Assembly (NCBI GenBank): GCA_020342155.1
Contig: CP070842.1
Location: 1,316,823-1,368,304, forward strand
Direction of reading: 5' to 3'
Origin: Dehalococcoidales bacterium
GTDB lineage: Bacteria > Chloroflexota > Dehalococcoidia > Dehalococcoidales > Fen-1064
DNA length: 51,482 bases
Part shown: in pieces, positions 28,490 to 33,788 of the stretch
Layout: each line of letters opens with the position of its first letter
How positions within the stretch are numbered: position 1 is the stretch's first letter
Position numbers and translations under genes: made by a program
Notes under the pieces: generated by a model
Told to the model about the DNA's origin: nothing
What the model saw: only the letters and a program-made list of their open reading frames with translations
The model's database searches: none

Positions 28490-28535
28490 CTGGCACTACT
28501 GTCATGTGTAATAATTGCACGGGAGGTGTTGTACG

Positions 28536-29021
28536 ATGATGGCAGAAGAAAAGAAGAAAAAGGCTGCGATGGTTGTTCTCAGTGGAGACATGGACAAGCT
28601 GTTTGCCGCTTTTATAATTGCTAACGGGGCCGCGGCAGTGAACATGGAAGTCACCATGTTCTTCACATTCTGGGGCCTGCGGGCACTGAAGAAAAATGTC
28701 GCTACCGGGAAGAGCTTATTTGGTCGGATGGTGGGTTTGATGTACGGTGGTGATATCACTAAAGCTAATCCCAGCAAGTTCGGGTTCTTCGGGCTGGGGC
28801 GGTGGATGTTCAACAAGATGATGAAGAGTAAGAACGTCGTTTCACTGCTGGAGATGAGGCAACTGGCTATTGACCTTGGGGTCAAGATGTACGGTTGCCA
28901 GATGAGCATGGATGTCATGGAGATTTCCAGAGAAGACATGATTGATGAAGTAACCGACTGCGTTGGTGCCGGGTTTTTCATTGAGCAGGCACAGCAGGCC
29001 GACTTCACCATGTTTATCTAG
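28536..29021 (+). CDS. DsrE-family sulfur-transfer protein (first copy)
   Basis: This 161-residue protein of the DsrE/DsrE2 type is expected to carry sulfane sulfur as a Cys persulfide. The start of the fold (VVLSGDMDKLFAAFIIANGAA) and the carrier Cys C121 in MYGCQMSMDVM are clear. About 20 extra residues (near 58-80) are absent from the second copy at 38840. I chose the ATG at 28536 because GGGAGG lies a proper distance upstream. The tusA gene follows within 20 bases, and the DsrMK-like membrane complex comes next, suggesting sulfur delivery linked to electron transfer. Confidence 0.85.
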   Translation: MMAEEKKKKAAMVVLSGDMDKLFAAFIIANGAAAVNMEVTMFFTFWGLRALKKNVATGKSLFGRMVGLMYGGDITKANPSKFGFFGLGRWMFNKMMKSKNVVSLLEMRQLAIDLGVKMYGCQMSMDVMEISREDMIDEVTDCVGAGFFIEQAQQADFTMFI

Positions 29022-29038
29022 TTAGAAAGGGGAGAGAA

Positions 29039-29329
29039 ATGGCTAAAGAGAAAGCTAAATCGAAGCAAGAAGCCAGTGAGAAGACAGAAAAGACCGCGGG
29101 TAAGGTTGACCTGGAACTGGATCTCAGAGGGTTGATGTGTCCCTTACCGATGGTCAGGGTCAGTCAGAACATCAACAAAGTACCCGTAGGCGGGGTAATT
29201 AGAGCAGTAGCTACTGACCCGGGAAGCCTTGCTGACATTCCGTCTTGGGCAAGGACTACGGGTAATGAGGTCCTTAAGACCGAGCGTGATGGCAAGGACA
29301 TTATTTTCCTGGTAAAGCGGGTCAAGTAG
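29039..29329 (+). CDS. TusA-family sulfur carrier (first copy)
   Basis: This is a 96-residue TusA/SirA-like protein. A charged, lysine/glutamate-rich lead of about 22 residues precedes the domain, which starts LELDLRGLMCPLPMVRVSQ. The carrier residue C34 is in the CPxP motif. The family passes persulfide sulfur to partners such as DsrE, and in Dsr systems to DsrC. It lies between dsrE and the DsrM-like gene. The long lead is unusual for TusA and is missing from the second copy. Confidence 0.88.
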   Translation: MAKEKAKSKQEASEKTEKTAGKVDLELDLRGLMCPLPMVRVSQNINKVPVGGVIRAVATDPGSLADIPSWARTTGNEVLKTERDGKDIIFLVKRVK

Positions 29330-29331
29330 TC

Positions 29332-30057
29332 GTGAACTGGCTTTCCTTTCTGCTTGCCGGCGTACTGGTGTACGTCGCAGTAGCTGTTTTCCTGGTGGGT
29401 ACTGTCTTCCGCGTATACTATTGGTTAAAAGTGCCTAGGAGCAGTATTAGACTAGGCATATTCCCACAGGCGAATAGCCAGCGCGGTAGATTTCTGCAAT
29501 GGGCCAGAGACACATTTCTCTTTTTACAGGTGCTCGATGTCGATCGGCCGATGTGGCTTTTCGTGATACTGCTGCATATCGGTGGTTTAGCAGCGTTTGT
29601 CGGCCACCTGAGATTAATACAGGAGTTCACACCACTGGCGACTGCTCTTGGTAAAGAGGGAATGGGGCAGTTTTCACTCATCAGCGGTGGCATTGTCGGG
29701 ATAGTGCTACTGGTATCAGTGATTTACTTGCTGTCCCGGCGTTTCAAATCACCTTACCGGGACTTATCTACCCCGGAGGACTACTTTCTGCTCATCCTTA
29801 TATTTATGGTTCTGCTTATGGGCAACCATCTTCGCTTTTTCGGACATGTAGAGGTAGAGGCTTATCGGGCGTATGTCCATAGCCTGCTGACCTTCAGCCC
29901 GGAATTCCCGGTCGAACTGGCAGAGTCGGGGACAAGGTGGGTTTTGGTAACTCATGTCACCTTGTCCAACCTGTTGCTTATCTACCTGCCCTTCAGCAAG
30001 CTTGTCCACTATATCGGGACTTACGCGGTTAATCTGGTAAGGAGTGAAGCACGGTGA
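29332..30057 (+). CDS. DsrM/NarI-like cytochrome b membrane subunit
   Basis: This 241-residue protein has about five transmembrane helices of the nitrate reductase gamma/DsrM/HdrE type. Candidate heme ligands are in ILLHIGGLAAFVGHLRL near residue 85 and in the last helices (VTHVTLSNLL, KLVHYIG). It starts with GTG two bases after the tusA stop and ends overlapping the DsrK-like start. It should exchange electrons between the quinone pool and the iron-sulfur subunit encoded next. Confidence 0.82.
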   Translation: MNWLSFLLAGVLVYVAVAVFLVGTVFRVYYWLKVPRSSIRLGIFPQANSQRGRFLQWARDTFLFLQVLDVDRPMWLFVILLHIGGLAAFVGHLRLIQEFTPLATALGKEGMGQFSLISGGIVGIVLLVSVIYLLSRRFKSPYRDLSTPEDYFLLILIFMVLLMGNHLRFFGHVEVEAYRAYVHSLLTFSPEFPVELAESGTRWVLVTHVTLSNLLLIYLPFSKLVHYIGTYAVNLVRSEAR

Positions 30058-31370
30058 ACAAGACTGAGCTCAAAACCATCACCGGTGTGCTCGAACAAGG
30101 AATGAACCGACAACTCCTTTACTACCTCGATGTCTGCACGAGGTGCTCCATCTGTAAGGATGCCTGCCACCAATATGTCTCCACCGGGGATGTTCTGTTC
30201 CTTCCGGCCTACCGTGCCGAGCTTATACGCCGGGTATATAAGAAATACTTCACACGGTCAGGTCTGTTTCTCCCCTCACTTTACGAGGCTAGGGAGTCTG
30301 ATGATCGCCTATTGGACGAGCTATACCGCTCTACTTATGCATGCACCGGGTGCCGCCGCTGCATGTATTACTGCCCTTTCTCGATTGATACCACATGGGT
30401 ATTAGGAGTAGCCAAGGCAATGTTAATTGCTGCCGGGAAAGGTGCCCAGATACTTACAGAACTGGCCGGAGCAGCCGTCTCAAAGGGTGAAAACATCGAC
30501 CTTTTTAAAGACATTATGCTCGACCTGAATAAGGAGACCGAGAAGGAACTCCAGAGTCTGATTGGCGACTCAAAAGCCACTATTCCGATTGAAAAGGAAG
30601 GGGCGGACATATTATACGCGGCTCTGGCGGGGGTGCATAGTATACTGCCGCCGTCTGTTATCTTCCATAAAGCCGGCCTCAACTGGACACTATCATTGTT
30701 TGAATCAGCCAATTACGGGTATTTCCTCGGTGATGTGGAAAAGGGCCGAATTATCGCTAAAAGGATTGTGGATGAAGCTAAGCGCCTCGGAGTGAAAGAG
30801 GTGGTCATTTCGGAATGTGGCCATGCCTACCGGGTAATGCAGTATCTCTACGAGACCTGGGCTAAAGAAGAGCTGTCTTTCGGGGTAACGGCTATGGTGG
30901 AAATTATCGCCCGTCTTATCGAGGAGGGTAGTATAGAAATACCTTCAGGTAAGGAGCGTAAGATAGTTACGTATCATGACCCGTGTCAGGTAGGAAGAAA
31001 TGCCGGTTTCTACGAGGAGCCGCGATATGTTCTTAATCAAGTAGCATCAAATCTACGCGAGTTGAATCCCAGCCGTGAAAAGAACTGGTGCTGTGGCGGC
31101 GGTGGGGGGCTGGTCGCCCAGCCGGAATTTGACGAGTTTCGAATCAAGACGGGCGAAAGAAAAGCAGAGCAGATTAAGCAGACTCGTGCCGGGCTTGTCG
31201 TCAGCCCCTGTGAGAACTGTCGACTTCAGATAACAGCTTTAAATGAGAAATATGATATGGGTGTTAAGGTAACCGGCTTGTCTGATGTGGTAGCCAACCA
31301 GCTAATCGGGCGTGACATCGCTACGTCATTTGAGGCAGGACAAACCGAAGAACCAGAGGACGAGGATTAG
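30054..31370 (+). CDS. DsrK/HdrD-like iron-sulfur subunit
   Basis: This 438-residue protein has two 4Fe-4S ferredoxin motifs (C28, C31, C34, C38 in CTRCSICKDACH, then CTGCRRCMYYCPF near residue 100). Two CCG-type regions follow: HDPCQVGR and NWCCGGGGG, with SPCENCRLQ near the C-terminus. CCG domains hold the noncubane cluster that handles disulfides or persulfides in heterodisulfide reductase and DsrK. With the membrane subunit it forms a DsrMK-like pair. No sulfite reductase (DsrAB) or DsrC is in the window, so the substrate is open; a disulfide or TusA/DsrE-bound sulfur is plausible. Confidence 0.86.
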   Translation: MNKTELKTITGVLEQGMNRQLLYYLDVCTRCSICKDACHQYVSTGDVLFLPAYRAELIRRVYKKYFTRSGLFLPSLYEARESDDRLLDELYRSTYACTGCRRCMYYCPFSIDTTWVLGVAKAMLIAAGKGAQILTELAGAAVSKGENIDLFKDIMLDLNKETEKELQSLIGDSKATIPIEKEGADILYAALAGVHSILPPSVIFHKAGLNWTLSLFESANYGYFLGDVEKGRIIAKRIVDEAKRLGVKEVVISECGHAYRVMQYLYETWAKEELSFGVTAMVEIIARLIEEGSIEIPSGKERKIVTYHDPCQVGRNAGFYEEPRYVLNQVASNLRELNPSREKNWCCGGGGGLVAQPEFDEFRIKTGERKAEQIKQTRAGLVVSPCENCRLQITALNEKYDMGVKVTGLSDVVANQLIGRDIATSFEAGQTEEPEDED

Positions 31371-31399
31371 AGAGGTTTGTGGGACAGGAGGAGAGGATA

Positions 31400-31585
31400 A
31401 TGCCACTTTACGAATATGAATGTACGAAGTGCGGTGAAAGGTTTGAGTTACGCCGCAGCATTGCAGACAGAGATGCAGATTTAGAGTGCCCCGAATGCCA
31501 AGATGCGCACCCGCGCCGGCTTTGCTCAATATTCGGCAGGGTGATGACAGCCAGACCGGAGTTCTTTAATGCCGGTCCGACCTGA
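31400..31585 (+). CDS. FmdB-type zinc-ribbon protein
   Basis: This 61-residue protein starts MPLYEYECTKCGERFE, the hallmark of the FmdB/CxxC_CxxC_SSSS putative regulator family, with a second pair in LECPECQ. The expected tail is partly altered (LCSIFGRVMTARPEFF). The start is taken at ATG 31400, preceded by AGGAGGAGAGG. It is the last gene of the dsrE-tusA-dsrMK-like unit. The family function is poorly defined. Confidence 0.8.
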   Translation: MPLYEYECTKCGERFELRRSIADRDADLECPECQDAHPRRLCSIFGRVMTARPEFFNAGPT

Positions 31586-32948: not shown

Positions 32949-33170
32949 TTCTTAATTCTCCAAATTACTAATATTCAAGATGATAAGCAATCAGACTTAT
33001 TTGTGCGTTATCCTATCACAATCGAGCTTATCAAACAATTAATAACCTTGCCCCTTATTATTTAAATAACAGTCCACCCAACATCAGGCTAACTTGTAAG
33101 TCAGCAAGGCATGCGGGTAGAATTATAGGTAGCTACGGGCATAATCTGTTTAGCCGAAAAGGAAGTAAAG

Positions 33171-33788
33171 ATGAGCAACAAAATTCCTGGAAATATTAGT
33201 CTGGACGTATACTTCGACTATCTCTGACCCTACGTTTACAACGCAGCGGTCTGGCTGCAGAAGGTCAAAGAAGAACTGGGCTCTCGATTGACAGTCATTT
33301 GGAAATATTTCAGCCTGGAGCAGGTCAACAGTAAGGAAGGTCCTGACTGGAAATTGTGGGAACAACCGGTTGACTACGTCAGTCGAGGCAGGAACGCTTT
33401 CCACGCTGCAGAAGCAGCGCGGGTACAAGGGGAGATTGTCTTTGATACTTTCCACTTCGCTCTACTCAAGGCGAGGCATGAAGATAAAAAAGATATCACT
33501 GACCCGGCTATCCTGATTGAGGTGGCTAAAAGTGTCGGTTTGGATATAGACAGGTTCCGTGATGACCTCAACGACCGACGACTGCTGAATAAACTGGCGG
33601 AAGACCATGTCTTCGCCGTCGAAACTCTGAATGTCTTCGGTACGCCGACTCTGGTCTTCCCGGAGCAACAGGCTGTCTTCTTGAAAATGGCACCACCCCC
33701 CTCCCGCGATGAATCAGTTACTGTATTCGAAGATATACGTCGTCTTGCTGAGGACAGACAACAAATCAAAGAGATAAAGCGACCGTAG
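33171..33788 (+). CDS. DsbA-like thioredoxin-fold oxidoreductase, probable selenoprotein (in-frame UGA)
   Basis: The frame from ATG 33171 (after AAGGAAG) runs to TAG at 33786-33788 with one internal TGA, codon 19 (33225-33227). Around it the peptide reads SLDVYFDYL-X-PYVYNAAVWLQ; in FrnE/DsbA relatives this is D-x-x-C-P-W-C-Y, so X is the active-site Cys position. Read through, it gives 205 residues with a DsbA-like helical insert and the cis-Pro loop FGTPTLVF near residue 160. Twenty bases after the TGA begins a GGTCTG loop closed by GCAGC/GCTGC, resembling a bacterial SECIS. A translation starting at 33288 would lose the active site. The alternatives are a point-mutation pseudogene or a sequencing error. 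Confidence 0.75.
33243..33258 (+). promoter_or_regulatory. SECIS-like hairpin downstream of the in-frame UGA
   Basis: GCAGC (33243-33247) and GCTGC (33254-33258) form a five-pair stem around the loop GGTCTG. In E. coli fdhF the apical loop bound by SelB contains GGUCU, about 18 bases after the UGA. Here the loop starts 20 bases after the UGA. The spacing and loop match what a bacterial SECIS needs. Confidence 0.65.

Follow-up and report, generated by a model that had tools for sequence, protein, structure and literature searches.

An in-frame UGA, very probably read as selenocysteine, at the single catalytic position of a DSBA-fold gene from a Dehalococcoidales bacterium

A single TGA in an otherwise intact frame

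An open frame with one internal TGA may be a decayed gene, a gene that truly stops there, or a gene in which the codon is read as an amino acid. The frame at 33171-33788 raises this question. A reading of the DNA from its letters alone (the sequence-only reading) had proposed that it probably encodes a new DsbA/FrnE-like selenoprotein, within what we call the window, i.e., the whole stretch of 51,482 nucleotides that was analysed. The frame opens with ATG at 33171, ends with TAG at 33786-33788 and, as had been claimed, is interrupted by one TGA only, at 33225-33227 (codon 19). The features of the locus are as follows.

33160..33163, + strand: probable Shine-Dalgarno sequence AGGA, 7 nt 5' of the ATG, recognised from the sequence
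33171..33788, + strand: coding sequence of the putative DSBA-fold selenoprotein, 205 aa, ATG start, TAG stop, UGA at codon 19
33225..33227, + strand: UGA codon for the putative Sec19, at the alignment column where the Cys homologues have their single catalytic Cys
33243..33258, + strand: candidate apical hairpin of a bacterial SECIS, GCAGC / GGUCUG / GCUGC, with its loop 20 nt after the UGA
33639..33650, + strand: codons of GTPT (residues 157-160), which correspond to the cis-Pro loop that the thioredoxin fold generally has; P159 and T160 are invariant in the family

The active site reads DYL-U-PYVY. The UGA does occupy the first active-site position, as proposed, but the suggested match to a CxxC-type motif (D-x-x-C-P-W-C-Y) does not hold: the motif is U-P-Y-V, and the second Cys of CxxC is therefore absent.

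TGA or Cys at position 19 in all relatives

Five orthologues found in the same family of genomes, 69-80% identical to the window gene, all have the TGA. We extended the comparison to 57 non-redundant full-length relatives, taken from 393 genomes of the class and from named genomes of Thermomicrobiales and others. Their alignment has TGA at position 19 in 44 members and Cys in the other 13, and no member has another residue, so that the comparison with homologues on which the proposal hinged came out as Sec or Cys only. The UGA form spans many families, and the tree of the relatives requires six Sec/Cys changes. Outside this alignment, a phylum-wide search returned a few further Sec members and many members without the stop. 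One UGA form belongs to a named strain, Thermalbibacter longus CFH 74404 (L073 5001-5588), which makes experiments possible.

All members keep the stretch that precedes codon 19 (DVYFDY or a similar sequence), and the Cys members read straight through the position of the UGA. The family motif is D-Y-x-U-P-x-V, and the invariant residues are D16, Sec19, P20, P159 and T160. The resolving Cys is absent: besides the Sec/Cys column, the 57 members have no second conserved Cys column. Values of dN/dS lie between 0.01 and 0.21 in 11 of the 12 computable pairs and reach 0.52 in one close pair, a pattern of substitutions that indicates purifying selection on the gene.

These data weigh on two other explanations. 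The first is a pseudogene or a sequencing error, i.e., a nonsense codon that arose by chance, which would account for the interrupted frame and for a hairpin that is weak when taken singly (see below). We regard its probability as close to nil, given that the same codon recurs in 44 genomes of many families with Cys in the rest, that dN/dS is well under 1 in nearly all pairs, and that the genome has the full Sec machinery. The second is that translation does end at the UGA, leaving a short leader upstream, and that a shorter protein is made from a downstream start, e.g. the TTG at 33288 (166 aa). A mechanically defined open reading frame does exist at 33288-33788, but its product would be a thioredoxin fold without its first beta strand or its active-site residue, and the conservation of the stretch before the UGA, together with the uninterrupted Cys members, also makes such a start very improbable. 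Because of the UGA/Cys conservation and the dN/dS values across relatives, neither decay, nor error, nor a true stop survives as an explanation.

The selenocysteine machinery is encoded in the genome

The sequence-only reading had named selA, selB, selD and tRNA-Sec as the genes to look for, and all four were found in the genome. The tRNA-Sec (UCA), selB, selA and selD are clustered within ~4.5 kb, at ~379.9-384.3 kb of the genome, and all score above cut-off. The selD gene, which lies beside the three others, is itself a UGA gene, with the motif GAGUASK (L078 1444-2538).

Among 50 genomes, SelB is above cut-off in 39 of the 41 with a UGA form and in 5 of the 9 with a Cys form, counts that ignore relatedness. 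The two UGA genomes without SelB above cut-off are assemblies of 63% and 88% completeness. In two genomes that are 97% and 95% complete (G027 and G063), SelB is absent and the Cys form is present. These results show that UGA forms track SelB and that the Cys form is retained in some lineages after the loss of selB.

One could also suppose that the UGA yields Cys, or is read by a near-cognate tRNA, and does not specify Sec, since the sole other residue at position 19 is Cys. However, TGA is an ordinary stop in the window, as had been noted, and ends two nearby genes (29332-30057 and 31379-31585); tRNA-Sec, SelA and SelD are present, SelD being encoded by a UGA gene; and the UGA forms follow SelB. 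We thus give this decoding a very small chance.

A SECIS-like hairpin supported at the level of the family

The hairpin lies where it had been placed, its stem starting 15 bases and its loop 20 bases past the UGA. The 5' arm GCAGC (33243-33247) and the 3' arm GCUGC (33254-33258) enclose the loop GGUCUG (33248-33253). Published limits for bacterial SECIS elements are a loop of 3-9 nt with an early G, located 16-37 nt after the UGA, a stem of 4-16 bp and an energy of at most -7.5 (PMC13188914). The window element lies within them, with a distance of 20 nt, the 6-nt loop GGUCUG, 5 bp and -8.0 kcal/mol in this check (-9.5 kcal/mol with RNAfold). A search of Rfam gave no RNA family match at the hairpin. 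Taken alone, the window hairpin is not significant: its shuffle z ranges from -1.0 to +0.4, depending on the stretch that is folded, and a test with synonymous codons gives p 0.09.

The signal emerges when the family is considered. The strict bSECIS model, with a contiguous stem, is satisfied by only 17 of the 44 UGA members, against 5.6 expected. Synonymous-codon shuffles leave the protein unchanged, and 13 other offsets served as sliding controls. In this test the 44 UGA members have a mean z of -1.9 at the hairpin site, with p <= 0.05 in 23 of them; z is near 0 at the other offsets (-0.5 to +0.3), and the Cys members have -0.9 at the hairpin site. Hence, the site is more stable across UGA members than the protein sequence demands. 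We also searched for covariation in 20 UGA sequences, hand-chosen for having the stem in the register of the window. In this chosen set, 4 of the 7 stem pairs have changes on both sides, and stem covariation is 0.245; shuffling lowers it to 0.156, and sliding to 0.093 or less. By inspection, the stem is shifted by one base in part of the f33 lineage. The SECIS proposal is thus upheld for the family, by the protein-controlled and covariation tests, and not by the hairpin of the window on its own.

The Sec/Cys alternation, the Sec machinery and this family-level signal bear out the central claim. From these sequence comparisons, we consider it very probable that the gene encodes a selenoprotein and that its UGA is read as Sec.

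Fold, structural relatives and proposed mechanism

The protein matches the Pfam family DSBA (PF01323) with an E-value of 1.8e-15 and 57.7 bits, the gathering cut-off being 25.6. In its AlphaFold model (pLDDT 87, pTM 0.86), Sec19 stands directly before the helix 20-39, and the DSBA fold is matched by both Foldseek and VIA. The protein is read as a cytosolic enzyme with this predicted fold. The closest solved structure by VIA-align is DR2335 of Deinococcus radiodurans (PDB 7dk9, 7dka), with Z 24.3, rmsd 2.1 over 192 residues and 30% identity. It has the same fold and a single conserved Cys at the place where the window protein has Sec: Sec19 aligns with C24, the residue whose change from Cys to Ser distinguishes 7dk9 from the C24S mutant 7dka. 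The DR2335 group is described as single-Cys, without experimental data or reported function (PMC8945050).

Rv2466c (Z 19) comes next, followed by YjbH, the kappa-class GST and FrnE (about 16). FrnE and Rv2466c share the DSBA superfamily with the window protein, at Z about 15-19. Rv2466c is only about 20% identical to it, and the Rv2466c Pfam model is below cut-off. FrnE, which is predicted to be cytosolic, uses a CxxC motif, and DrFrnE adds a C-terminal CxxxxC (PMC8945050). In contrast, the window gene has no second Cys: a CxxC or UxxC of the FrnE type was not found, the window having UPYV and the second-Cys position never being Cys in the 57 members. The description of the gene as FrnE-like is therefore not supported, since CxxC is absent and the closest structure is DR2335 rather than FrnE.

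As residue 19 is the only conserved Cys/Sec and the resolving Cys is absent, we lean towards a monoselenol mechanism: the protein is probably a thiol/disulfide enzyme of that type, and not a FrnE with CxxC. In the mechanism that we propose, the cell's own SelA, SelB, SelD and tRNA-Sec would decode the UGA as selenocysteine, with the hairpin 20 nt downstream acting as the SECIS. Sec19 would then directly precede the first helix, where thioredoxin-fold enzymes usually carry their catalytic residue. Its selenolate would attack a disulfide or another electrophile, and the resulting selenenyl-sulfide would be released by an outside thiol, which may be a low-molecular-weight thiol or a reductase protein.

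A FrnE-type paralogue was also observed. It has CPWC in the genus of the window (own genome, L002 1360-1989) and UPWC, with TGA, in the sister genus (L016, L017, L018 and L021), the longer motif DYIUPWC being found in L017, L018 and L021. Judging from these motifs, Sec and Cys would have been exchanged a second time within the superfamily.

Relation to known DsbA-like selenoproteins

The claim that the gene is new is doubtful: with reference to Peng et al. 2016 (PMC5029168), a catalogue of 2026 (PMC13188914) already lists a 'DsbA-like protein form 2' with the motif DxxUP and the domain PF01323 (example MDP6049977.1). The window gene shares with it PF01323, one Sec and D-x-x-U-P without a following Cys; DYLUPYV is an exact fit, which places the gene within the known DsbA-like selenoproteins. 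Compared by motif and domain description, the two are likely identical in kind. The catalogued example is annotated in the crotonase/enoyl-CoA hydratase family, and nothing in the window gene explains this annotation. We considered a crotonase fusion in one locus (L048), where an open frame of >450 codons lies upstream, and rejected it: by eye the frame is nothing like enoyl-CoA hydratase and looks like the noise of a G+C-rich genome.

The 'DsbA-like protein form 1' (UxxC, COG2761) comes from the Sargasso Sea selenoproteome (PMC1088965). It has in common with the window gene the DSBA fold and Sec as the first active-site residue, but it keeps the resolving Cys, which the window gene does not. 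The DYIUPWC paralogue of the sister genus has the form 1 motif. A literature search on FrnE selenoproteins gave nothing relevant. It is also conceivable, if rather unlikely, that the gene represents a separate Chloroflexota family, distinct from the catalogued DxxUP proteins, of monoselenol DSBA-fold enzymes with their own chemistry with a small thiol or substrate.

The gene offers a clean and testable example of Sec and Cys replacing each other in an enzyme that otherwise has a single thiol, the Cys forms occurring where SelB has been lost, and could help to assign a function to the uncharacterised DR2335 group. No NCBIfam model covers the family, the only match being NF041057 (thioredoxin-like (seleno)lipoprotein), far below cut-off; annotation is thus likely to truncate such genes or to label them as broken.

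Genomic neighbourhood

Other families of the class have the gene beside rnc (RNase III), the genes being named by eye (L069, L085, L087, L090, L091, L093, L095, L098, L100 and L102), and several of these loci have the CCA-adding enzyme on its other side. The conserved neighbours (RNase III, CCA-adding enzyme, FtsY) give no functional clue, rnc and the CCA-adding enzyme being housekeeping genes. In the lineage of the window, the gene sits elsewhere than beside rnc. Translations read by eye at 28515-31370 of the window give consecutive DsrE-like, TusA-like, membrane cytochrome-like and HdrD/DsrK-like iron-sulfur proteins, a row that is perhaps an operon for sulfur transfer and electron transport.
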